From Paracoccaceae bacterium (GTDB lineage: Bacteria > Pseudomonadota > Alphaproteobacteria > Rhizobiales > Stappiaceae), in NCBI GenBank assembly GCA_002709505.1, contig PARB01000030.1, positions 55,816-119,815 of the forward strand: 64,000 nt of DNA, given 5' to 3'. A model generated the notes under the pieces. That model saw nothing but the letters and a program-made list of their open reading frames with translations. It made no database searches and was not told the DNA's origin. Position 1 is the stretch's first letter; each line of letters starts with the position of its first letter. The translations under genes and the position numbers were made by a program. Below are positions 50,158-64,000 of the stretch, one piece after another.

Positions 50158-50421
50158 TTGCACCAAGCCGGCGCGCGGCGCGCGCCTTTTGCTCTGCGGG
50201 CAAATCCTCCAGCGCCACCCCCGCGCTCGCACATCCCCATTTCAGGCCAGGCCGAGGCCTGCAAAACCGGCCGGAACGGAGATCCTCGCACTCATCCACA
50301 GCCGCAATCATTTTCCGTTGGACGACAGGGTTGCGGAGGCGCGGGCGTGGTGATATTAACCCGCGACGCTTCAGAGAGACGCCGCCTTCCCGGGACGGAA
50401 AATCGCCTCTGAACGCGATAT

Positions 50422-50498
50422 CGGAGTGTAGCGCAGCCTGGTAGCGCACCTCGTTCGGGACGAGGGGGTCGCAGGTTCAAATCCTGCCACTCCGACCA
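50422..50498 (+). tRNA. tRNA-Pro (anticodon CGG), CCA encoded
   Basis: CGGAGTG...CACTCCGACCA; anticodon arm CCTCG-TTCGGGA-CGAGG; T-arm GCAGGTTCAAATCCTGC. Confidence 0.95.
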
Positions 50499-50573
50499 CT
50501 ATCTTCAAGCATTTAGCGATATTCGAAATAGGCCAACACAGGCGCCCCGACAGATATCCCGACAGAAATACAT

Positions 50574-50759
50574 TTATCTCAAATCGGGCAGATGCTTCCG
50601 CTTCAGATACCCTTGGGAAACGAGAGTGAAAATCAGCGCATCCCTGTTGGGTGAGCAGATGATCGTGACCTCATACAAGCCAGGGTCATCGCGCTTGAAG
50701 GCCCGCAAGGCGCTGGCGACCTGTTCTTCAGTCCATTCCTGCTCGCGGGTGGAAGTCAA
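50574..50759 (-). CDS. Small protein (61 aa) downstream of luxI, TTG start
   Basis: RBS-like AGGAGAG just upstream of [64 protein letters not shown]. Confidence 0.45.
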
Positions 50760-50855
50760 GCCTCTCTCCTGTCTGGATTGTCAATGCTCTCGCACAAGGA
50801 GAGGGTGCCGCATTCGGTCCGCCGCACCCTCAAAGTTGAATGACCGCCGCGGTCG

Positions 50856-51509
50856 TCAGGCAACGAGCGCGTAGAGAGGATCGGTGGGCACTGTCTTTTC
50901 GAGAACGCTTCCGGTGATCCCGCTTGCCTCCCGCAGCCCGTCGATCATCGCTTCGTCTGTTTTGAACAGCCCCGCGTAGGTCATCACCCGACCGAACCGC
51001 ATCGGGGTTCCGATCGTCTCGGCCTTGCAACGCGCCCGCTGAAAAAGCCGCGCCATCGTCGCGTCATACACTGAGACAATCTGACGAAGACGGATCAGCG
51101 ATCCGATTTCCGCCATTCCGAGGAGAAGCTCGGCGGTCACTTCATTGACCGCACCGGCTCTCCTGGCCTTGCAGGCATAATCCGGATCGATCGAGAACCG
51201 CGAACTCTCCCAGATCAACGGATCTGCAATTGTCAGATCGTCCGGGAGCAGTCCCGAAAACACGTCTCGCAACATGTTCGGCCCCGTTGTCGGCAGCAAA
51301 CGAACGCTGCCCCTCACATCGCCGTTCACTGGATCGATCGACAGCATATAGAGCGGATTCTGATCGTCGAACTCGTCGATCTCCCACCCGTCCTCGATGC
51401 GAACGTCCCACCGCAACCGATGATGGAACACCTCGGCACGAATGGTATGCATCCGATCGATTTCATACATATGACGCAACCGATCACAACCCTGAATAAG
51501 TCTGATCAT
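50856..51509 (-). CDS. LuxI-type acyl-homoserine lactone synthase
   Basis: R-x-EVFHHRLRWDV, EIDEFDDQNPLYMLSID, GSVRLLPTTGPNMLRDVF, WESSRFSI motifs. Confidence 0.93.
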   Translation of the reverse strand: MIRLIQGCDRLRHMYEIDRMHTIRAEVFHHRLRWDVRIEDGWEIDEFDDQNPLYMLSIDPVNGDVRGSVRLLPTTGPNMLRDVFSGLLPDDLTIADPLIWESSRFSIDPDYACKARRAGAVNEVTAELLLGMAEIGSLIRLRQIVSVYDATMARLFQRARCKAETIGTPMRFGRVMTYAGLFKTDEAMIDGLREASGITGSVLEKTVPTDPLYALVA

Positions 51510-51567
51510 AACAAGCTCCCCTGTTGGAACGACGGAATCATGACAAGGGAAAGCGCGCCGATATACT

Positions 51568-51581
51568 CCGTAAATTTACCG
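51568..51581. promoter_or_regulatory. Candidate lux-box-like palindrome upstream of luxI
   Basis: ccGTAAATTTACcg; inner 10 bp perfectly palindromic, one mismatch over 14 bp; between luxR and luxI. Confidence 0.4.
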
Positions 51582-51620
51582 AATAGACAATTTTAACTAA
51601 ATAAAACAAGCATCTATATT

Positions 51621-52337
51621 TCAAATTAGCCTCAAACGCAGCGCTCTTGTTACGGAATGCGTTGTATTCACGGCATTGAGCTTCAGACGTGAGAACTCCA
51701 TGTACGATTGAACCGTTCCACGGCGAATTCCCAGAATGATCGCAATCTCCTCATACGTTTTCCCCTCAGAAGCCCATTTCAAACACTCGATCTCTCGCTT
51801 CGTAAGGCGGGGAATAACTTCGCTAACTCGTTCAACTCTCAAGATCATTTCATGAACGACATTCGCGATAAGCTGGAAATCACGCATATAATGTGTTCGC
51901 AATCTGATCCACTCTCGATCTGTTTCCTCGCTGGTAATCGACAGCATGGCTGCCTCTCCGTTTACACCCCGGATTGGCATCGTCATGCCTTGCCTACCAA
52001 CACCAAACTCCTGGGCTTCGCCAAAGAATGTTTTCAGAGGGCCACTCGTCTTGTCGAAAGTCGACCAATCGGTCGGGAGCATGCGTTGCAACCCCGCACT
52101 CAAAACAGGGTCGATGGAGACATAGTCATTCTTCTTGTAATGCTGAACCCATGCATCATCATACGTTACGGCAAGATAGGGCTCCCGAGCAGTCAACTCA
52201 GGAATTCGCGCAGCAAAGTACACTACGTTCTTCAATCCGTAGGCGGCCCTGATCCGATCAAGAAGCGCCATTCCTTCATTTGGGTTGGCTATCGTGTTGA
52301 GCTGATCAATCACCTCTGAGAAGAACACATTTTTCAT
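51621..52337 (-). CDS. LuxR-type AHL-responsive regulator
   Basis: Autoinducer-binding domain (WVQHYKKNDYVSIDPVL, DWSTF, FGVGRQGMTMPIRG) plus GerE HTH (LTKREIECLKWASEGKTYEEIAIILGIRRGTVQSYMEFSRLKLNAVNTTHSVTRAL); start chosen at MKNVFFSEV behind GGGGGTGAG. Confidence 0.93.
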   Translation of the reverse strand: MKNVFFSEVIDQLNTIANPNEGMALLDRIRAAYGLKNVVYFAARIPELTAREPYLAVTYDDAWVQHYKKNDYVSIDPVLSAGLQRMLPTDWSTFDKTSGPLKTFFGEAQEFGVGRQGMTMPIRGVNGEAAMLSITSEETDREWIRLRTHYMRDFQLIANVVHEMILRVERVSEVIPRLTKREIECLKWASEGKTYEEIAIILGIRRGTVQSYMEFSRLKLNAVNTTHSVTRALRLRLI

Positions 52338-52387
52338 TCTCACCCCCACCAGCTTCACCTAGGAGTGGAAAATTTAGCACTATCGCG

Positions 52388-52567
52388 TCATGGGCGCGAA
52401 GCCTCTTGATTCAGGAGAATGCGACTGCCGATTTTATGAATGATATCGTCGACATCCTCCGACAGCTCCTCATCGAGCTCGCTCAGCTCTTCACGACAGA
52501 ACTGCAATGCTCCCATGACGTAGCTCAAGATACTCGTCGTGGTATCAGGTGGAAGTGCGCCTGCCAT
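52388..52567 (-). CDS. Unlisted 59-aa acidic small ORF upstream of luxR
   Basis: MAGALPPDTTTSILSYVMGALQFCREELSELDEELSEDVDDIIHKIGSRILLNQEASRP*; RBS GAGGAGAA about 6 nt upstream; below the ORF-track size cut-off. Confidence 0.6.
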   Translation of the reverse strand: MAGALPPDTTTSILSYVMGALQFCREELSELDEELSEDVDDIIHKIGSRILLNQEASRP

Positions 52568-52626
52568 TTTGCGTTCTCCTCAGTTGCCCACAATCCTAAA
52601 GAGGACACAGAGGCCTGCGTATTGCG

Positions 52627-52661
52627 CAATTCATGGGGGCAACGTTACCCCCGTAGAATTG
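52627..52661. promoter_or_regulatory. 35-bp imperfect palindrome in divergent intergenic region of the QS module
   Basis: CAATTC at GGGGG c AACGTT a CCCCC gta GAATTG. Confidence 0.45.
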
Positions 52662-52760
52662 TGGAGTTGACAAGGTCGCAATCCCAAACAATCGCAATGG
52701 TTGCTTTTTTCTAACAAAGATTGAAATATGCGTTTTCGAGATCAATGATCGAGCTTGGAT

Positions 52761-53066
52761 ATGACCAAAGCGGACAGCGGAAAAGAAATCATCAGGCGCA
52801 TTGAAGAGCTTGCTGCGTTTTTCCATCGGCGAGGGCTTCAAGAGGAGGCAGAAAGAATGGAGAGGATCCTTTTCTTTGCCCACTTCGAAGTCATTGGGAA
52901 CAGAGATGCAATCTCGTATATCGAAAGTCTTATGCCAAGCAATATCCAAATTTTAATCGCGCGAGACAGAAATGAAAACATCATTAAAGGATACTTCTCA
53001 ACCGAAGACCGGCTCAAATCAGGCAAACATTGTGACGATATACATGGAGAGCGGCACCTGCCTTGA
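52761..53066 (+). CDS. Hypothetical protein
   Basis: ORF MTKADSGKEIIRRIEELAAFFHRRGLQEEAERMERILFFAHFEVIGNRDAISYIESLMPSNIQILIARDRNENIIKGY; overlaps 52972..53202. Confidence 0.45.
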   Translation: MTKADSGKEIIRRIEELAAFFHRRGLQEEAERMERILFFAHFEVIGNRDAISYIESLMPSNIQILIARDRNENIIKGYFSTEDRLKSGKHCDDIHGERHLP

Positions 53067-53202
53067 GAGCACTATAGAAGAGGCCTTAATTGCGCTCGAT
53101 AGGCTTGAGCGACGCCTCAAGTTCGCCTCCCTACCCCATCGGCAGAAAGAACTTAGATTACGGATCGACGCCTATCGCAGAGCTTTGGAGAACCACGGTT
53201 GA
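52972..53202 (+). CDS. Hypothetical small protein (76 aa)
   Basis: ORF with coherent helical C-terminus ESTIEEALIALDRLERRLKFASLPHRQKELRLRIDAYRRALENHG. Confidence 0.4.
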   Translation: MKTSLKDTSQPKTGSNQANIVTIYMESGTCLESTIEEALIALDRLERRLKFASLPHRQKELRLRIDAYRRALENHG

Positions 53203-54028: not shown

Positions 54029-54811
54029 TCACCAAGCCGTCCAGCCACCATCGACAGGCAACGTAGCCCCATTGATGTAACTTGCCGTTGGGGACGCGAG
54101 AAACGCGACAACACCGCCGATCTCGGATGCTTTCCCAATGCGCCCCAACGGGATCTTCTTCTCAAGACTTGAGATCAAATCGGGCGAACGTCTCTGAGTT
54201 TCTGGCGAGGGGAAAGCGCCTGGGGTCAGAACATTGAAGCGAATGCCCTCCGGCCCGAATTCACAGGCTGCATAACGAGTCCATTGGATGAGTGCCGCCT
54301 TGGCTGCGCCGTAGAAAGCGGCGTTTGCTCCATGTTTGTCCGGATAGACCCGAAGATCGGGACTTACGACGCCATACATGGAGGCGATGTTGACGACGGC
54401 AGCATCACCTCGCTTAGCTCTTGCGGCGCGCAGGTTCGGTAATGCACGCCTCACCAGCCTTTGCGCTGCGACGACCGCCACCTCATAACTTTCTCGGTAA
54501 CCGTCATCATCTGCAACCTCAACTGCTCCAGCCCCCCCCGCATAGGCGTTGTTGACCAAGATATCGAGGGGCTCTGCTCCAAGGCGCCCAAAAAATTCAT
54601 CGACCTGATCGACGTGGGTGATGTCGAAAGCGGCAGGAAAGGCCATGAACCCCTCCTTTGCAAAGTCCTCGGCAAGACGAGTAACCGTGGCCAAGTCCCT
54701 TCCGTTCAAATAAACCCCGGCACCGGCCGCCATCAGCTCTCGCGCAATACTCAGGCCAAAATAGCCAGTGGCGCCGGTTACAAGTGCCGTCTTGTCAGCA
54801 AGTGAAAACAT
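54029..54811 (-). CDS. SDR family oxidoreductase
   Basis: ALVTGATGYFGLSIAREL, LVNNAYAGG, AFYGAAKAALIQWTRYAACEFGPEGIRFNVLTPGAF. Confidence 0.92.
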   Translation of the reverse strand: MFSLADKTALVTGATGYFGLSIARELMAAGAGVYLNGRDLATVTRLAEDFAKEGFMAFPAAFDITHVDQVDEFFGRLGAEPLDILVNNAYAGGAGAVEVADDDGYRESYEVAVVAAQRLVRRALPNLRAARAKRGDAAVVNIASMYGVVSPDLRVYPDKHGANAAFYGAAKAALIQWTRYAACEFGPEGIRFNVLTPGAFPSPETQRRSPDLISSLEKKIPLGRIGKASEIGGVVAFLASPTASYINGATLPVDGGWTAW

Positions 54812-54826
54812 GCTTCCCTCCCTCTG

Positions 54827-55756
54827 CTACGCCCGCAGCCATCTAGCGGGGTCCAGGGTTTCTGTCCCAAGGTGCGGTCGTCCCGCCCGTATCCGGACAA
54901 GATCTCCCGAGGTCAAAGGCGCCGTCCGGCAGTTTTGCAGGTTCTCACGCATCTGGTCTACGGTTTCGGCCCCAACCACAAGACCATCGACCCAATCCTG
55001 TGCCCGGCCCCAGGCGAGGCACAGATCCTGCACATTCCGCCGCCGCCCCGCCCGAACCTCCGACAACAGCCAGCTTCGAACATTCCCTCCATTGGCAACA
55101 TGTGCGCGGTGCCAGTGGTCTGGCTTATCGGAAAGGAACAGCCCCTGCAGCAAGGAACTGCGCCCGTGGATGGTCAACGGCCGTTGTTTCCTGATACGCT
55201 GAACCTCCGGTAGCGCTCTGTCCCATCGATGATCGAGAATATTGACCGGCAACTGGATATGTCGGACGCAATCCTCAGAAAGAGCCTGCAAAAGTTCTTC
55301 CGGCGACTGCACCGACACACCAAACGCGGAAATACCACCAGCCTCAAGTTCGCTGTGCATGATGTCTGCAACTAGGCTGCCTTCCAGGCGATAATCTTCC
55401 CAGCGGTGCAGAAGGACCGCGTCGAGCCTGTGTCGTTTTAGGGACCGGCGCGACTCGGTGAGGCTGGAGCGCACGAGATCTGCCAGCTTAGAGGCATCTC
55501 TCCCCGACCCTTCATGCGTAAGGCGAAGCGGCAGCAACTTGGTTGCCAGTTTGACCGGCCAACGGCCGATAGCTTCAAGCGCCGTCCCGATGGCTTCCTC
55601 GCTTCCCGGATAGGCTCGCGCCGTATCTATCCAGCCGACACCAGAATCCCTAGCAAGACACAGGATCCTGCATACCGTCTCTGGAACCGGCGCTCCGGTC
55701 GCGTTGGCAATGCCATAGGGCGCGCCGAACTGGGCCCCACCGACTACAAGTTTCAT
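54827..55756 (-). CDS. Aldo/keto reductase
   Basis: VVGGAQFGAPYGIAN, VGWIDTARAYPGSEEAIG, RLDAVLLHRWEDY, DGLVVGAETVDQMREN. Confidence 0.9.
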   Translation of the reverse strand: MKLVVGGAQFGAPYGIANATGAPVPETVCRILCLARDSGVGWIDTARAYPGSEEAIGTALEAIGRWPVKLATKLLPLRLTHEGSGRDASKLADLVRSSLTESRRSLKRHRLDAVLLHRWEDYRLEGSLVADIMHSELEAGGISAFGVSVQSPEELLQALSEDCVRHIQLPVNILDHRWDRALPEVQRIRKQRPLTIHGRSSLLQGLFLSDKPDHWHRAHVANGGNVRSWLLSEVRAGRRRNVQDLCLAWGRAQDWVDGLVVGAETVDQMRENLQNCRTAPLTSGDLVRIRAGRPHLGTETLDPARWLRA

Positions 55757-55758
55757 TG

Positions 55759-57582
55759 CTATAGCCCCTGCTCTGGGCGCACGGTCTCCCCGACCCTGCC
55801 TTTGGGAAGACGCGTCTTGAGTTTCAACTCCTGGATAAGATCCTCATCCGACTGATACTTCACAAGCATCCTGGTGTTGGAGCCGGCAAGATCCGGCTGC
55901 CGGTCCAGTATCGAGAACACATTTTCCAGAGTGTGCGGAAGCCCAGCTTGCCCAAGCTGGTCAAACAGCGCCACGAACAGATCGTAGTCTTCCTGGTAAT
56001 CCATCGTGAGCCGATAGTCCCTGACAAGGTGTGGCGGCAGCGTGACGACATTCACGGAAAACACGTCGGGATTGTTTTCGAAATACCAGTTCATATATTC
56101 CGACATCGGCGCACCCCCGAGCCCTTCGAAGACCCGGCGCATTGCTTCGACGTTGATGATATGGGCACCTGTTCCCACCGCATCATTTTCCGCACGGGTA
56201 AAGTCGGCACCCGTTCTAAAATGGCTTTCCAGGAGATAGTCCGCGATTTCCGGAGAAATGACGGGATTGTCCCCGGTCGCACGCACGATTACATCAATCC
56301 CCTCGTCGCGGGCAAGATCGAGATAACGCTTCATCACATCGTCCGGGTCTCCTTGGAAAAACCCGCAGCCCATTTTTCGAGTGGCCGTCTCCAGAACAGC
56401 ATCCTGATTAAGGGTCGACGTCGCAAGATAAACCGCATCAACCCGTCGGATCCGCTGGCAGTTTTCAATGCAGCGTTCGATCATCGGCTGGCCGCCGAGT
56501 GGTAGCAGGGCCTTATTCTCCAGGCGCGAGGATTTCATCCGGCAGGCGATAACGGCCGCGATCCGCGCGGTTCTGAAGGAGGATTTAAAGAAAGCATCAC
56601 CCCGACCATGGGTACGCGCCAGAACTTGGCCGTCGCCCTGCAGATCACGGATCTGGTCAGGTGCAAGCGGGAAGCCGCCCTGACGACGAAAAATCAAATC
56701 CCCGGCGCCCACGAGCGAACCCTCGCGCTTATTCCTTGCACAGCAAGGCAGCAGACGGCTTTTGGTCAAATAGGCTTCTTCGGCACGGTTGATGAACTCC
56801 GACGAGAACGACTGCACCACCGCATGCAGATGCTGCTCCATCTGACGGACTTCCAAGGGTTCCAGCGCAGACATTGCGTCATACTCCGTCTCCGCCCGGG
56901 AAAGACAGACATGTTTCTCCACGCTTCGACATCCTAGCGCGCAAGCGATCGCCGGCAAGACCAAGGCATATGGATCGGTGGCACTGATGTGGTCTGCAAT
57001 GCCCAGATCAATGTCAGGAAACGCGGCCCGCAACACGGCAATCTTGTTGAGCTGGCAGTCTTCGATAGCAGTAGGATAGCTTTGAAAGCCGATCTGCAAC
57101 GTTGTGTTGGTCCTCAAGAAGCCAACGTCGGCGAGTCTATCCAGAATGCGTTCGATCTCACTGATTTCAAATCCGGAGACATTTGCAATCAGGCGTGTGC
57201 CGGCGAGATCGAACGCCTGCAGCAAATTTAGTACCTCTTCATTCTGGAGCATCGACGCCTGCAGCTTTACCCCGAATACCCTGTCCCTATTATCTAGGAA
57301 GACGGCAATGCAGTTGGCGTCCGCCATTTCGAGCCAGACATCGTAAAAGTGCGACGCACGCGCGATGATCCGGCCCCAGGTTTCGCGCGGTATCTCAAGT
57401 TTCCGGTAGATGTCGAAAAACTCAAACGATGGCGTCGCCAGCGTCTCCGCTGAAATAGGGTGGAACTTTAACCCTTTACGCTGGGTTTCTTCGCTGGGAG
57501 CCAGATGATCCATCAGGACGAACAGCCTGTCCGGATCGCCCGCGTGAACACTGGCGGTCTCAAAAATAAGGTAAGGACTCAT
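55759..57582 (-). CDS. Fusion: NeuB-like nonulosonate synthase domain + SpsF/NeuA-like cytidylyltransferase domain
   Basis: N-terminus FETASVHAGDPDRLFVLMDHLA..GLKFHPIS, QIGFQSYPTAIEDCQLNKIAVLRAAFPDIDLGIADHI, CRSVEKHVCLSR; C-terminus AAVIACRMKSSRLENKALLPLGGQPMIERCIENCQR, GCGFFQGDPDDVMKRYLDLA, VRATGDNPVISPE, RLTMDYQEDYDLF. Confidence 0.85.
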   Translation of the reverse strand: MSPYLIFETASVHAGDPDRLFVLMDHLAPSEETQRKGLKFHPISAETLATPSFEFFDIYRKLEIPRETWGRIIARASHFYDVWLEMADANCIAVFLDNRDRVFGVKLQASMLQNEEVLNLLQAFDLAGTRLIANVSGFEISEIERILDRLADVGFLRTNTTLQIGFQSYPTAIEDCQLNKIAVLRAAFPDIDLGIADHISATDPYALVLPAIACALGCRSVEKHVCLSRAETEYDAMSALEPLEVRQMEQHLHAVVQSFSSEFINRAEEAYLTKSRLLPCCARNKREGSLVGAGDLIFRRQGGFPLAPDQIRDLQGDGQVLARTHGRGDAFFKSSFRTARIAAVIACRMKSSRLENKALLPLGGQPMIERCIENCQRIRRVDAVYLATSTLNQDAVLETATRKMGCGFFQGDPDDVMKRYLDLARDEGIDVIVRATGDNPVISPEIADYLLESHFRTGADFTRAENDAVGTGAHIINVEAMRRVFEGLGGAPMSEYMNWYFENNPDVFSVNVVTLPPHLVRDYRLTMDYQEDYDLFVALFDQLGQAGLPHTLENVFSILDRQPDLAGSNTRMLVKYQSDEDLIQELKLKTRLPKGRVGETVRPEQGL

Positions 57583-60500
57583 CCCGAAAAGTTCCTTGCA
57601 ACGTGCCCCTCAACCGGCTTCGGATTCTGCTTTGACCAGTTTTCCACCTCCTCAACCAGCGCAGCGACAATCGATGACTTGTCTCCCGGGTCACCTCTCA
57701 GGAGGCGAACACACTCGTACCAAACATCCGAGCGCTCCGGTCCGATCTCCCGCCACCAAGTTTCTCCGTGATTGCTGAACAGCAGCCCCGGCGTTCCGGT
57801 CGCACCAGCGAGTTCAATGACGGCGGTACCCGGGCCAATGACGAGATCCAGATTGGACATCAGCGCGGCAACGCTATCGAAATCGTTGTACTGGTCGATA
57901 TCCTCGAGATTAATAATCTTACCCGGGTAGCGTTCACGGACCCAGTCTAGTTCTTCCTCGCAATCATCGTATTGAAGGTTCACGAAGGTAATGTCTTTGA
58001 GGGCAAACAGGGGTTCCAGTTCCTCGATGTCGAGATAGTGTACGTTGCGCATCGCATTTGTGAGTTGGCTGCGCCAGCTTAATCCTACCAATCTAGTGTT
58101 CTTGGGCAGTCGCTCGCGGAATGCCGAGGCCTTTACCGGATCAGGCTTCAGATAAGGCGTGCGTTTAAAGTCACTATAATCCTTGCGGAAATGCCAGATA
58201 ATTTCGGTAAAAAGCATAATTTTGTCTGCTTTTTCTACCGCTTCATGGCCATTGTTATCCAAAACCCGCCGTAAATCTGCGCCGGGTAGACGGTCAAATT
58301 CTCGATGCGGGAACTCGGCGCTGAACTCACGGGTTCTCCGCACCGGCGTCAGCCGGACTTGCGGGAAGGACCTGGAAAGAAGCGGCAGCAGTCGAGGGTC
58401 GCAGCACAAGCTAAAGGTGTCGTAGCCAAACCTATCACCGATCTCCGACAATAAAACGCTGTAGCGTATTTCCTCCGCTGGGCCGAAATCGCAGATAAGA
58501 AGGAGATCCTCCATCTGGAGCTCTTCTGAATTCTGGTATTTCTCCGCGCCATAATAAGCGATGAGCCGGTCTCGCATAGCGGTGTTGAGAAAGCAGCGGA
58601 AACCCCTTTCGATCTGCCGCAGCCCGAAGAAGATCGGCATGACCGGCCCTTCTAGCGGCAAGTCGATTTGGAGGTCTACACTCTCTAGGAAGTGCTGATG
58701 AGCAGTCTCAAAATGCCCCAAAATCTTTAGCAGGCGAAGCAGTTCCGTGTAGGTTGCCTTGCAGGGATCGCGAGCGACCGCCTGCTCCATAACCTGCACG
58801 GCACGCTGATAGTCGCCCACGCCCGCGAGGGCACGGGAAAAGGCCACCAGCGCGGTGTCGCTCCTGTCTCCCATTTCAATCAGTTCGGTCATGATTGTCA
58901 GGGCTTTTTGAGGTCGGCTCAGTTCCAGCCAGGCATTGGCTAGCCTAACCGACCGGGAGCCATCCATCGCAAGAATTGCATGGGACAGCGCAGCAGCATT
59001 TGACCGACCGAGAAATTCATTCAATCGAGCAAGCGTACGATTGACACGATCCGGGTTGAGAACCAGCTGAAGCGAAAAGGATTCTAGGATGTCTTCTAGC
59101 GTCTCATCGCCAGGCGTTGTTGACAAACACTCCACGTGATAGTTCACGCCAGCATTGTTGTGCCCTGATATATTCGCATACTTGAGCATGTCGGACAGGA
59201 GCCGCACAGAAGTTGTGTCGAAGGTCAGATCGGCGATCTTGATAGCAGGTAAAAGCAGGCCTGAATGGAGGTTCCCATTCAGCATCAGAGTGAGAACATG
59301 GTCCAGCGCCTTCTCATAATCCCTATGTTCGACAGCTCTTTCGCACATTGAATAAAGCAGCGCGACTTGTTCAAGGGTTTGAGGCAAAGGCTCGGAGGGT
59401 GCAGGTCCCCCGTCGTCATTGTCATCTGCAGCCAGGCCCGTGCGATTGTACTGAGCCTCCATCAGCTCGAACGATTTAGGGACTTCCTTGAGTTGCTCCA
59501 ACAGCCAGGCCCATTGGATGGCATCAGTATTCTTCGGACGAATTTTCCCGAGCCGTGTCAGAAAGTCGGCGTAGATATCGGGCGCGATGAACTGTCGGAC
59601 TTTGTTCAGGAATCTATTGCGTGCGTCGTCCGAATTCAGAACACCGCAAACCGCGTGAAGAAGGACAGACTGGTAGATCCTGCAACCAGGCGCCTTGAGC
59701 GTGCGGTGAAACGGAGCCTGGCAGATGAGCTCGTCAAAGTTCTCATGTGCCTGGCCCTTTTTCGCGAAAAGGAACGCCGGCCAATAGCTTGACTGAACTG
59801 TCGATTTCAGAACGTCCTTGCGCGGAGTCTCGTTGACCAGACTCTTGTGCGTCTTCTGGGTGATTACGATCCTGTCTGCAGATATGCGGCGGATCGCGGC
59901 CATCAAGCCGATATAGCTGTCGTCCAATGCGCCGAGGTATTTGGCATAAATAAGATAGGACCCTGCAAACAATTCAGCGAGGGAGAGCTGTCTCTTCCGC
60001 CGCAAAAGTGTAGCGCGGTCGTCGGTTAAGCCCCAGCCGGCATAGAACGGCGCGCCGAAAACCGTTACCTTCTTGCCTCTGAGCAGAGCCTCCAGACCGG
60101 ACAGAGACGTAACCACATATACATGATCAATTCCGTCGAGAAATTGGGGTAATCCTTCTTCCGGCGAGGCCAGACGGCATATTTTCTGTACCCTCGAGAG
60201 CCGCGTCTTACTCTTGTGCAGACCCTTATAGATCTCTGGATGCGGTCGGTAGATTATCTCGCTGGTCGGATTCTCGAAGGCTGCAATCTCGATGATGTCT
60301 TCCATGGTCCAGCCATCAACATTGCCCTTGCGCATGGACATGTCTTTGTCTACCTGGCCGATCACCGCAACACGCTTTTTGCCCGTGAACTTTTTGAACG
60401 GATCATTCTCGGTGGTGAGCGGCGGATTGTACTTGGAAATCCCAAGACGGCAAAGAAGTGAGATCAACTCTTCCGCCTGTTGCAGTAACTTCGGATTTGA

Positions 60501-61115
60501 CTGGAAATCGTAGTGATTTAGGACATCCTCTAAATCCGTTTGTGCCGAATGGTCATAGTGCAGAACGCCAGAGTAATCGAACACAAGAGAATACGGTGTC
60601 GTGTGGATGGCACCCAATTGGGCGGAGCGGACAAATCCATCTTCTACACGAGCATAGGCAATGTTCTTTTTCTTCAAATACGACAAAAGAAAATAAGGTT
60701 CATTATAACCCCAAATATATACGATTTTTGGCTTCTCAATCATCGCTCGAATAACGCCGGCGAAAAAGAAATAATTTTTCTTCATCGGCGCAAAAGCGCA
60801 TCTGTAATCGGAAAGGAAGTCTGCTACAAAACCAAATTTCCAGTCATTAAAACCAACCAACAGGGCGATGGGCTTCTTCCCACCTGGCTCCTTCCAGCTT
60901 TCCCCGACCAAAAACATCTCCTCAAGCCCGACCGGCGCTGGAGACAGTTCATGCGGATTGATCAGCGTGTAAGGGTACTCGTACTTGTCAGTTTTTCCCT
61001 GCCTTCTGATACGAAGGATGGCGCTCCGCAGGAACGTCTTGATCCGTTCTGGCTCGCCAAACTTATCTTGGAGGGAGGTGCGAAAGAACTTCTGAATGAC
61101 GCTCAGGTCTGCCAT
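57579..61115 (-). CDS. Large multidomain glycosyltransferase: KpsC/KpsS-like Kdo-transferase region + TPR region + C-terminal GT-B-like domain
   Basis: ARVEDGFVRSAQLGAIHTTPYSLVFDYSGVLHYD, EIIYRPHPEIYKG, VTSLSGLEALLRGKKVTVFGAPFYAGWGLTDDR (capsule synthesis family); central TPR-like repeats; C-terminal VGLSWRSQ...DLVIGPGTAVIELAGATGTPGLL. Confidence 0.82.
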   Translation of the reverse strand: MADLSVIQKFFRTSLQDKFGEPERIKTFLRSAILRIRRQGKTDKYEYPYTLINPHELSPAPVGLEEMFLVGESWKEPGGKKPIALLVGFNDWKFGFVADFLSDYRCAFAPMKKNYFFFAGVIRAMIEKPKIVYIWGYNEPYFLLSYLKKKNIAYARVEDGFVRSAQLGAIHTTPYSLVFDYSGVLHYDHSAQTDLEDVLNHYDFQSNPKLLQQAEELISLLCRLGISKYNPPLTTENDPFKKFTGKKRVAVIGQVDKDMSMRKGNVDGWTMEDIIEIAAFENPTSEIIYRPHPEIYKGLHKSKTRLSRVQKICRLASPEEGLPQFLDGIDHVYVVTSLSGLEALLRGKKVTVFGAPFYAGWGLTDDRATLLRRKRQLSLAELFAGSYLIYAKYLGALDDSYIGLMAAIRRISADRIVITQKTHKSLVNETPRKDVLKSTVQSSYWPAFLFAKKGQAHENFDELICQAPFHRTLKAPGCRIYQSVLLHAVCGVLNSDDARNRFLNKVRQFIAPDIYADFLTRLGKIRPKNTDAIQWAWLLEQLKEVPKSFELMEAQYNRTGLAADDNDDGGPAPSEPLPQTLEQVALLYSMCERAVEHRDYEKALDHVLTLMLNGNLHSGLLLPAIKIADLTFDTTSVRLLSDMLKYANISGHNNAGVNYHVECLSTTPGDETLEDILESFSLQLVLNPDRVNRTLARLNEFLGRSNAAALSHAILAMDGSRSVRLANAWLELSRPQKALTIMTELIEMGDRSDTALVAFSRALAGVGDYQRAVQVMEQAVARDPCKATYTELLRLLKILGHFETAHQHFLESVDLQIDLPLEGPVMPIFFGLRQIERGFRCFLNTAMRDRLIAYYGAEKYQNSEELQMEDLLLICDFGPAEEIRYSVLLSEIGDRFGYDTFSLCCDPRLLPLLSRSFPQVRLTPVRRTREFSAEFPHREFDRLPGADLRRVLDNNGHEAVEKADKIMLFTEIIWHFRKDYSDFKRTPYLKPDPVKASAFRERLPKNTRLVGLSWRSQLTNAMRNVHYLDIEELEPLFALKDITFVNLQYDDCEEELDWVRERYPGKIINLEDIDQYNDFDSVAALMSNLDLVIGPGTAVIELAGATGTPGLLFSNHGETWWREIGPERSDVWYECVRLLRGDPGDKSSIVAALVEEVENWSKQNPKPVEGHVARNFSG

Positions 61116-61850
61116 GGCAGGATCACAATATCTTTCTAACTAGGGAGAAAGCATTGGCTGCTTTCATCAATTTGACCGGCGCTACGTCCAGCGACAGAAG
61201 CGGTTGTAAAGCATTTTGAGCGGCCCTAGTCCTTCGGCGCATCCTTCCACTATAGCCCGTGCTTTAGCATGGAGTGGCACCCGAAGCGACTCGGCGGTCA
61301 TCCGCGCACCATCCCGTGAGCCTCGTAGAGAGCGGCTCGCTCTTGGCCAAATAGGCTTGCGAATGCAGAAACAAATCAAGCATGGCAGACTCCCATACCA
61401 TCCTGGATCACACTCCGCCATTCAATACAAATCAACAGGGCCCAAGCCTAGCGACAACAACACCGATTTCACCTCTGTCGCAATCCTGGAATTCGCTGAT
61501 CGGCATAGGAACAATTAGCATCTTATCGCTCCGGGTAAGCCGATACAGAATGCGTTCATTGAATCATTTGACGGCAGGCTCAGGGACGATAGGCTCAACC
61601 TGTTCCCAAGCCGATCCGATTCCCGTATCGCCTTAACGTAGTGGCGAGCTGATTAAAACGCCAAACGCCCACACTCGCGGCTAGGCTGGCCCACCCTAAC
61701 TGAATACGCCAAGACCTTTACCCGGCGCCGGGTCCATGGGCGACGCCCAATGGCCAGATCCTCGCCAATCCCCTTTCTTCCATCACGCTCAACCGGGCCA
61801 ACACAACGCCCGGAGTCTACGTCACACCAAATATAAAGAGGAGGGCAACA

Positions 61851-62180
61851 TCACCCCGCCCTATCACCACCGCCTCCCCCATTCCGCGTAAGCACCTGAT
61901 CGATCCGGCGGTTGAGTTCCGCCTGCCCCTGCCGAATGTCCATCAAGAGCTCACGTAACGCATCTTGAGACCGGTCGTGATCGTCGCGACGCACATACTC
62001 ATCACGAACGCGGTTTATCCGCTCGTGGAGTCGGTCATCACCTTCGCGCGAATGGCGAAGCGCATCCTCGTCTCCTTTTCGGATAGTTGCCAGCATGTGA
62101 CGATCCCGCATCAGCAACCCTCCAATGACGGTTGCAATACCGATCGCTACGGTGACAATCCACTTAAGATCATCTCCCAT
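61851..62180 (-). CDS. Phage-type small membrane/coiled-coil protein
   Basis: MGDDLKWIVTVAIGIATVIGGLLM TM then charged coiled coil; ATGA overlap with upstream Rz1-like ORF. Confidence 0.6.
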   Translation of the reverse strand: MGDDLKWIVTVAIGIATVIGGLLMRDRHMLATIRKGDEDALRHSREGDDRLHERINRVRDEYVRRDDHDRSQDALRELLMDIRQGQAELNRRIDQVLTRNGGGGGDRAG

Positions 62181-62452
62181 CACTGTCCCCGCTCCCCATG
62201 CCGCCGGCATTCCGGCCCGGTCCACACCTGCGCGTTGCACAGCCCCGCCGCCGTGACATCGATCTTGCGTTGATCCCGCGCCGTCGCGCCGCGCGCGCCG
62301 ATCAGATCGGTGCCGACGACGACGCGGATCGTCTCACGGATCTCGGCTTTCGCACCGACCGGTGCCGTGGTCATACAACCCGCCATCGTCAAGGCAGCGC
62401 CGAATAGCGTCGCGGCCGTCACGAGCCGCGTTCTTGAGGTCTTCCATGTCAT
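62180..62452 (-). CDS. Rz1-like outer-membrane spanin (lipoprotein), start embedded in Rz-like ORF
   Basis: MTWKTSRTRLVTAATLFGAALTMAGCMTTAPV lipobox; out of frame with 62334..62633. Confidence 0.6.
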   Translation of the reverse strand: MTWKTSRTRLVTAATLFGAALTMAGCMTTAPVGAKAEIRETIRVVVGTDLIGARGATARDQRKIDVTAAGLCNAQVWTGPECRRHGERGQ

Positions 62453-62633
62453 CTTTCGTCTCCTGCGCAGCCTCTTCGACAGCCTCGTTTCCCACCCGCC
62501 ATTCGGCAATCTCGACGTAAGCCCACAGCGCCAGCATCCCGGCGAGCACCAGCGCCGGCCAGCGCAACGCCGGCACCTTCCAGACCGTCGCCAGGACCGT
62601 CAGCAGCGCGCTCACGTCCAGCCCTCGAACCAC
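62334..62633 (-). CDS. Rz-like inner-membrane spanin
   Basis: TM WPALVLAGMLALWAYVEI then coiled coil NEAVEEAAQETKDDMEDLKNAARDGRDAIRR. Confidence 0.6.
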   Translation of the reverse strand: MVRGLDVSALLTVLATVWKVPALRWPALVLAGMLALWAYVEIAEWRVGNEAVEEAAQETKDDMEDLKNAARDGRDAIRRCLDDGGLYDHGTGRCESRDP

Positions 62634-63520
62634 CGCCGCACCGGCGCCGGCAGGCTGTCCCGGATCCGACCCCGGTTCGCCCAGGCGAGATAGGCGAGCA
62701 GGATCACGACGCCGGTGGTGCCGAGCGCATAGATGATCGTGGTCCAGTCGATGCCGACGGTCTCCTCGAGCGCCACGCCGGCAGCTCCGACGCCGCCGAC
62801 GACGCCCGTACCGCCCTTAGCCGCCGTCTTGCGCTCAAGCGCCCGCTTTGCCGTGGCGCGCGTTGCCGGGCCGAAAATGCCGTCAACGACCAGCGGCGGG
62901 TGGTGCGCCCGCTGAAACGCCTTCGTCGCGGCGCGCATGTCGCTGACGTCGTGCCCGAGCCGCCGCAGCAGCTCCGCATCCTCATGCGTCTGGTCGATGG
63001 AATCGGTCTTGCCGAGATCGCGCGGCGCCGGGCCGACGCCGATGTACTCGCCGGTCTCGAGCAGATGCGCCTCTTCCTTCCGCCGGCGCACCAGTCCGGG
63101 CAGACGGCGACCGCCGGCCGTGTTGTAGTTGTCGCGGAGGATCGCGGCCGCGCGCTGCACGTTGCCCGCCTTCAGCGCCTGCGCCCACCGCCATTTCAGC
63201 GCGCCGGGCCCAAGGTTATAGGTGACCGAACAAGCCGCATCGAACTGGTACTGCGGCAGCGGGCCGAAGGCTTGGCGGACCGCCGCGCCATACTCCTCGG
63301 CGATCAGCGCGCGCAACACCTGCAGCGCGCCATCCTTGGTGATCCGATCGCCCATCCGCAGGTCGCGGCCGTAGCGACCGCGCCACCATGCGGCGAAGAC
63401 CCGGCTGCGCATGGTGAAGCCGTAGCCGATGGTGAGCACACCGACCGGATCCCGGTAGGCGCTGGACACAAAGCCTTCGTGCCCGGCGATGAACGCCAGG
63501 CCGCTTTCGCTGATTTTCAT
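62612..63520 (-). CDS. Phage endolysin: GH24 lysozyme + peptidoglycan-binding domain + C-terminal TM
   Basis: FIAGHEGFVSSAYRDPVGVLTIGYGFT (E/D/T catalytic pattern), QYQFDAACSVTYNLG, AFQRAHHPPLVVDGIFGPATRATAKRAL, TM IYALGTTGVVILLAYLAWA. Confidence 0.9.
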   Translation of the reverse strand: MKISESGLAFIAGHEGFVSSAYRDPVGVLTIGYGFTMRSRVFAAWWRGRYGRDLRMGDRITKDGALQVLRALIAEEYGAAVRQAFGPLPQYQFDAACSVTYNLGPGALKWRWAQALKAGNVQRAAAILRDNYNTAGGRRLPGLVRRRKEEAHLLETGEYIGVGPAPRDLGKTDSIDQTHEDAELLRRLGHDVSDMRAATKAFQRAHHPPLVVDGIFGPATRATAKRALERKTAAKGGTGVVGGVGAAGVALEETVGIDWTTIIYALGTTGVVILLAYLAWANRGRIRDSLPAPVRRWFEGWT

Positions 63521-63595
63521 GGGAACGCCCTTTCGTCAGGCACAAAAAAAGCCGCCGGTAAGGCAGCTCATCGTGGTCGGTGATGTGTGGTCCGC

Positions 63596-63871
63596 TCAGC
63601 GCGCGGGCTTGCCCGCCTTGCCGGCCTTGCCGGCCATCGGCTCGCCGGACACCTCGCCCCGCGCCTCGGCAAGTGTGGCCTCCAACTTGGCGACCTTCTT
63701 TTTCAGCTCGGCGATCTGCTCCTCGGCCACGACCTTCTGCGCCTCGGCCACGGCGAGCGCGCCAGCCGTGTTCTGCGCGTACGATCGGATGAGGGTATCC
63801 ATTGAATGCCCCGCTTGGTACCCGGCCTGAATCCGCAGCGACTGGAGGTCAATCTGGTTCGTGTCGGTCAT
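63596..63871 (-). CDS. Phage-associated coiled-coil hypothetical protein
   Basis: MTDTNQIDLQSLRIQAGYQAGHSMDTLIRSYAQNTAGALAVAEAQKVVAEEQIAELKKKVAKLEATLAEARG. Confidence 0.5.
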   Translation of the reverse strand: MTDTNQIDLQSLRIQAGYQAGHSMDTLIRSYAQNTAGALAVAEAQKVVAEEQIAELKKKVAKLEATLAEARGEVSGEPMAGKAGKAGKPAR

Positions 63872-63902
63872 TGTCTGTCCTCTGTGTGGTTCGAGGTGTC
63901 TG

Positions 63903-64000
63903 TCAGGCCCAGGGCGCGGCGCGCGCGACCGGCGGGTTTTTCCGGACCTCAATCTGCTCAGCGATGATGGCCTTATGCTCGTCGACGTCGAGCGTGCCGG
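63903..64000 (-). CDS. C-terminal fragment of phage-region ORF, truncated by window end
   Basis: Open frame ...GTLDVDEHKAIIAEQIEVRKNPPVARAAPWA* running off the window. Confidence 0.4.
   Translation of the reverse strand, partial: GTLDVDEHKAIIAEQIEVRKNPPVARAAPWA

Follow-up and report, generated by a model that had tools for sequence, protein, structure and literature searches.

What surface glycan is served by a four-gene operon built on two large fusion proteins, and could the operon make that glycan unaided? The genes lie on the minus strand at positions 54029 to 61115 of a 64,000-nucleotide (nt) stretch of contig PARB01000030.1 (C1 below) from a Paracoccaceae bacterium (assembly GCA_002709505.1), a stretch referred to here as the window; other contigs, genomes, and compared loci carry the prefixes C, G, and L. 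A first-pass annotation read them as one operon encoding a self-contained pathway that makes, activates with cytidine monophosphate (CMP), and transfers an unusual acidic sugar, a nonulosonate, without an ATP-binding cassette (ABC) exporter. The four genes are indeed where it placed them, in one orientation, all with ATG starts and joined by one 4-nt overlap, one 2-nt gap, and one 15-nt gap, as expected of one operon; their length and conserved catalytic motifs exclude chance open reading frames (ORFs). Our comparisons suggest that the locus is probably a fragment of a horizontally acquired K-antigen locus of the rkp-3 type, whose polymer would include a nonulosonate of the pseudaminic acid (Pse) family. 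It is a new gene combination that joins two modules, each found in Pse loci elsewhere, and it is not self-contained. The features, all on the minus strand, are as follows.

57579..61115, minus strand: fusion of a KpsC-like glycosyltransferase (GT), a tetratricopeptide repeat (TPR) region, and an OGT-like GT (KpsC/TPR/GT), 1178 residues, a putative dual-module capsule glycosyltransferase (ORF, PF05159, sub-threshold TPR, PDB match to KpsC, homologs in Pse capsule loci L040, L041, and L125)
59859..60989, minus strand: KpsC-like retaining ulosonate transferase domain, residues 43-419 (alignment to 6mgb, 6mgd, and 8fuw)
58551..59738, minus strand: α-helical TPR region, about residues 460-855 (Pfam TPR and helices in the structure model)
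57618..58511, minus strand: C-terminal GT-B half, about residues 869-1166, apparent kin of OGT/SPINDLY-type TPR glycosyltransferases (structure model and Foldseek)
55759..57582, minus strand: NeuB-like/SpsF fusion (NeuB/SpsF), 607 residues (ORF, Pfam, structure model, 51 related loci)
56572..57582, minus strand: NeuB-like TIM barrel and divergent SAF domain, second-NeuB clade (residue alignment to NmNeuB, tree, fold match)
55873..56565, minus strand: SpsF-type cytidylyltransferase domain, CTP_transf_3 (Pfam and fold match to 6oew)
54827..55756, minus strand: aldo/keto reductase (AKR), 309 residues (Aldo_ket_red; orthologs in L077 and L052)
54029..54811, minus strand: short-chain dehydrogenase/reductase (SDR; adh_short_C2), 260 residues, a putative nonulosonate-modifying dehydrogenase (Pfam; YxxxK; orthologs in L077 and L052)

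Homologs of KpsC/TPR/GT are found within Pse capsule loci, which supports the nonulosonate surface-glycan function first proposed. In two genomes of the same genus, a homolog of ∼1190 residues directly adjoins PseI, with PseG/H, PseF, and PseC in line and with PseB, KpsT, KpsM, and KpsE facing it; identity is 47% in the KpsC part and 37-43% in the GT part (L040/L041). A third genome of the genus, G077, has a more distant homolog near a NeuB gene. Full-length homology extends to a Sinorhizobium chiapasense plasmid, where a 1159-residue protein (32% identity over 96%) lies beside PseF/G/H/I and KpsE/T/M, while a plasmid of S. meliloti Rm41 carries the KpsC part only, within a complete rkp-3 Pse/K-antigen region. 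PseB, PseC, PseF, PseG, PseH, and PseI are all present in the same-genus genomes G079 and G083, and likewise in Rm41.

Of the systems known, the one most like this locus is the rkp-3 K-antigen region of Sinorhizobium (S. meliloti Rm41 and S. fredii); S. fredii makes a pseudaminic acid homopolymer through its rkp-3 genes (PMC4270759). Shared with it is an RkpZ-like KpsC protein beside PseB/C/F/G/H/I and KpsE/T/M, the S. chiapasense homolog having all three domains. The window genome differs in that PseB and the exporter are on another contig and no PseC-PseI block was found, and the window locus adds NeuB/SpsF, AKR, and SDR, with SpsF in place of PseF. The operon looks horizontally acquired because its GC content is 54.8%, versus 66.1% across window positions 1-50000.

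The exporter thought to be missing is encoded in the same genome. A KpsE-KpsM-KpsT-PseB block on another of its contigs, C55, is 88-93% identical at the nucleotide level to G079 and syntenic with the capsule locus of that relative; of the six Pse genes that rkp-3 holds together, PseB alone was found. Nor does a self-contained pathway agree with the relatives, in which these genes sit with PseB, PseC, PseG, PseH, and PseI, the steps after PseB not being found in this assembly.

Domain searches recovered families that the first-pass annotation had named: Capsule_synth (PF05159; 1.1e-28, residues 132-375) in KpsC/TPR/GT, and NeuB (3.2e-15) and CTP_transf_3 (6.5e-23) in NeuB/SpsF. A phmmer search of the PDB matched residues 133-395 of KpsC/TPR/GT to the solved KpsC structure 6mgb at 5e-41, and the motif residues E158 (EDGF), Q254-D258 (QxxxD; QVDKD), and H292 (PHP; PHPE) align with Glu66, Asp160, and the His of KpsC-N, in which Glu66 is the general base, Asp160 of QxxxD is the nucleophile, and the His is conserved (PMC10148158, PMC12887879). 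The assignment as a KpsC-like transferase is thus supported by both the match and the motifs. The EDGF Glu, QxxxD Asp, and PHP His are common to the window protein and the KpsC Kdo (3-deoxy-D-manno-oct-2-ulosonic acid) transferase modules (GT107; cousins WbbB GT99, KrkA GT140, and KpsS1 GT118), but where KpsC proper has a tandem pair, the window protein has a single module fused to TPRs and a different, second GT, and its probable donor is a Pse-type sugar.

Matches to TPR around residues 725-792 fall below the Pfam cutoff, and the Pfam search gave no family match for the C-terminal GT, which was placed by a structure model instead. In the model of residues 431-1178, the helical repeats are of lower confidence and the GT half has a predicted local distance difference test (pLDDT) score mostly >90. 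Its best Foldseek matches are SPY/OGT (E value of 1e-7), with the capsule multienzyme Cps3D third (4e-7), and the modeled fold places it with the OGT/SPINDLY-type TPR-GT-B enzymes. FlmG and Cps3D/Cps7D likewise combine TPRs with GT-B modules (PMC7591256, PMC11666461), but unlike the window protein they have no KpsC-like module. We favor a dual-module capsule polymerase, by analogy, because there are established capsule polymerases in which TPRs accompany two GT-B modules (PMC11666461). The range of KpsC-like transferases would then come to include proteins of pseudaminic-type capsules in which TPRs link two GTs.

The structure model of NeuB/SpsF (pLDDT, 92) matches NeuB/PseI and cytidylyltransferase folds, the latter with a TM score of 0.88 to 6oew. 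The Pfam match to NeuB is weak, at 56.7 bits, and covers only the domain's C-terminal part; the SAF portion is too divergent for Pfam, yet its Arg, R300, is still conserved. Residues E8, K39, K106, Y169, H198, E222, H224, D235, and R300 correspond to NmNeuB E25, K53, K129, Y186, H215, E234, H236, D247, and R314, and the catalytic or metal positions E25, K53, K129, H215, E234, H236, and R314 are kept in 13/13 close relatives. The pocket equivalents of S154 and S213 are altered in 13/13 and 12/13 of them, respectively: where nearly all canonical NeuBs have Ser, the close clade has Asn and Ala. S132, S154, and S213 presumably help to bind the phosphate of phosphoenolpyruvate. The fused domain retains its metal-binding, base, and sugar-binding residues and probably still binds metal and amino sugar. 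Active-site residues listed in PMC6795526 include Ser213 and Asn184.

A tree of 75 sequences, 35 of them canonical, puts the fused NeuB-like domains outside the canonical NeuB/PseI group. A canonical NeuB is normally present close to the fusion: in 10 of the 12 genomes searched, one scoring >225 bits shares a contig with the fusion, or with its split form, the exceptions being Marininema, which has no strong second match, and one incomplete metagenome-assembled genome. We conclude from this co-occurrence that the fused domain is a second NeuB and not the pathway's only synthase, contrary to the first reading; NeuB/SpsF as a replacement for PseI was rejected on the same count. The SpsF motif RxxSSR(L)xxK (R348/S351/R353/K357), together with D438, is invariant in 23 homologs. 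Because three genomes (G113, G855, and G860) have, besides the fusion, no CTP_transf_3-family gene except KdsB-like or sub-26-bit matches, the SpsF domain is likely the CMP-activating enzyme there, in line with the role first assigned to it.

We found 51 loci related to NeuB/SpsF across many phyla; within the close clade it comes after PseB-PseC, an order present in L042, L052, L069, L074, L075, and L077. A Vibrio nonulosonate cluster, B9-25K2, likewise has PseB, PseC, SpsF, an AKR, and a dehydrogenase, with SpsF replacing NeuA/PseF, but there SpsF is fused to the AKR rather than to a second NeuB-like domain (PMC7371886). The legionaminate genes of Bacillus subtilis also pair a NeuB with an SpsF-type cytidylyltransferase, although SpsE and SpsF are separate genes and SpsE is the required synthase (PMC7439481). 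It is conceivable, and we put it forward tentatively, that the second NeuBs, in most cases joined to SpsF and frequently found with an AKR, form a widespread family that acts in parallel with PseI and catalyzes another reaction, either giving a second ulosonic acid or altering the nonulosonate, or the acyl group on it, ahead of CMP activation. If true, the family would mark an undescribed branch of nonulosonate chemistry with members in many phyla, Pelagibacteraceae and Prochlorococcus among them. Automatic annotation would label the domain as a synthase of sialic or pseudaminic acid, and counted so, it would lead to mispredicted sugars for many bacteria. In single-cell genomes of Pelagibacteraceae the second NeuB is fused to SpsF, and in those of Prochlorococcus NeuB2 and SpsF are neighboring genes (loci among L084, L085, L092, L093, L095, and L113); these loci usually also hold a canonical NeuB.

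Pfam identified the remaining proteins as an AKR (Aldo_ket_red, 4.5e-22), with candidate catalytic residues D44/Y49/K73/H117, and an SDR (adh_short_C2, 4.7e-41) with YxxxK. Orthologs of the AKR are 39% identical in L077, directly after NeuB/SpsF, and 36% in L052; those of the SDR are 48% identical in both. The order in L077 (Sphingomicrobium lutaoense) is PseB, PseC, NeuB/SpsF, AKR, SDR, PseG/H, PseI, with SpsF instead of PseF, and in L052 (G828) PseB, PseC, NeuB/SpsF, AKR, with PseG, SDR, and a TPR-GT nearby. The shared order NeuB/SpsF-AKR-SDR bears out the earlier view of both as nonulosonate-locus genes. We favor a role in epimerization or redox tailoring, by analogy, because the Pse pathway of the Vibrio cluster has a dehydrogenase after its SpsF-AKR fusion (PMC7371886), and because Acinetobacter baumannii AciE, an SDR of the same Pfam family, marks the difference between the acinetaminic acid pathway and its 8-epi-acinetaminic counterpart (PMC5595891). 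The exact four-gene order of the window, which the first-pass annotation had proposed to look for elsewhere, did not recur among the 58 loci compared, and in none of them does KpsC/TPR/GT adjoin NeuB/SpsF.

From gene content, motifs, synteny, co-occurrence, and clade we infer the following route. The sugar would be built by PseB, encoded on the other contig, and then by PseC, PseH, PseG, and a canonical PseI, which are not in the assembly. The SpsF domain would CMP-activate it, and the AKR and SDR would change its stereochemistry or oxidation state; the fused NeuB-like domain is a member of the separate second-NeuB family. The KpsC-like domain would transfer the sugar to the growing chain by a retaining Asp-adduct mechanism, with D258 as nucleophile and E158 as base; the C-terminal OGT-like GT would add a second sugar, the TPR region would link the two modules and hold the chain, and KpsE/M/T would export the polymer.

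Several observations weigh against an rkp-3-type origin and product. PseC, a canonical PseF, PseG/H, and PseI were not found in the 85.4%-complete assembly, so the full Pse pathway is shown only by relatives; because of that completeness, the absence is not proof. A candidate PseC among the genome's own DegT genes was rejected, at 28-32% identity versus about 60% in relatives. No physical link between C55 and C1 was shown, and in G079, PseB and KpsC/TPR/GT are convergent, unlike any simple join of C55 and the window. The known Pse transferase of the superfamily, KpsS1 (GT118), is nearer KpsS than KpsC (PMC12887879). Finally, a LuxI/LuxR quorum-sensing pair (50856-51509 and 51621-52358, both minus strand), also of low GC, lies just downstream of the operon; G083 (L048) matches positions 50292-53194 at 76% identity and has IS3 and a different KpsC-like gene beyond its luxR, which suggests a shared glycan-island site next to luxIR. 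Because the window genes adjoin luxI/luxR where G083 has a different KpsC-like gene, they may form a second glycan locus, the main one being another.

Three other explanations were weighed. The fused NeuB domain might itself be the strain's nonulosonate synthase, so that NeuB/SpsF both makes and CMP-activates the sugar; it is the sole NeuB found in this assembly, with the core catalytic residues and the NeuB and PseI fold. We consider this unlikely, given the canonical NeuB that usually shares the contig, the separate clade, the Asn and Ala at the S154 and S213 equivalents, and the Vibrio cluster, which with its PseC, SpsF-AKR, and dehydrogenase has an ordinary NeuB and no second one reported (PMC7371886).

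The other two concern KpsC/TPR/GT. FlmG, a TPR and GT-B enzyme, puts Pse onto flagellin (PMC7591256), and with the OGT/SPINDLY-like C-terminal part and a related TPR-GT beside flagellin in Azospirillum ramasamyi, one might suppose that the window protein glycosylates flagellin or another protein. That the KpsC domain occurs in KpsE/M/T capsule loci in the same genus and in Sinorhizobium, that no flagellin gene was recognized beside KpsC/TPR/GT here or in L040/L041, and that capsule polymerases with TPRs and two GT modules are known (PMC11666461) make this doubtful. The first-pass annotation had noted that KpsC-family enzymes add Kdo linkers to capsules, and the protein might be the Kdo-type lipid linker enzyme of an ordinary group-2 capsule; among solved structures, KpsC Kdo transferases come nearest and have the catalytic residues in common, but the protein has one KpsC module instead of two, Pse genes surround its relatives and point to a sugar of the Pse type, and the genome has a separate KpsC/KpsS-like set on contig C92, so that a Kdo role appears very improbable. 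A capsule polymerase acting on a Pse-type sugar is the reading that we retain.

Phage-related genes lie near both parts of the locus. After PseB on C55 (L123, from 11557) is a phage integrase, repressor, and CII-like set; toward the contig end at 64000, upstream of the operon, are phage lysis-type genes (61851-63952, minus strand), with an endolysin (phrog_7) at 62612-63520 and lipoprotein-like small ORFs. Between these and the operon, at about 61530-61650 on the plus strand, a translation resembles, by eye, an IS3-family transposase remnant. As a guess, a prophage may lie between the C55 block and the window end; a comparison of the two for a shared att repeat gave only chance-length matches.

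A second capsule-type locus, on the genome's contig C92 (L046, 11447-15402), has three Capsule_synth genes, and a 2541-residue ORF adjoining it looks polyketide-synthase-like by eye. In A. ramasamyi (L127, 10254-25150), PseI and SpsF have flagellin and the TPR-GT as neighbors, together with acyl-carrier, AMP-binding, and ketoacyl-synthase genes, an arrangement that suggests an acyl-modified nonulosonate on flagellin.

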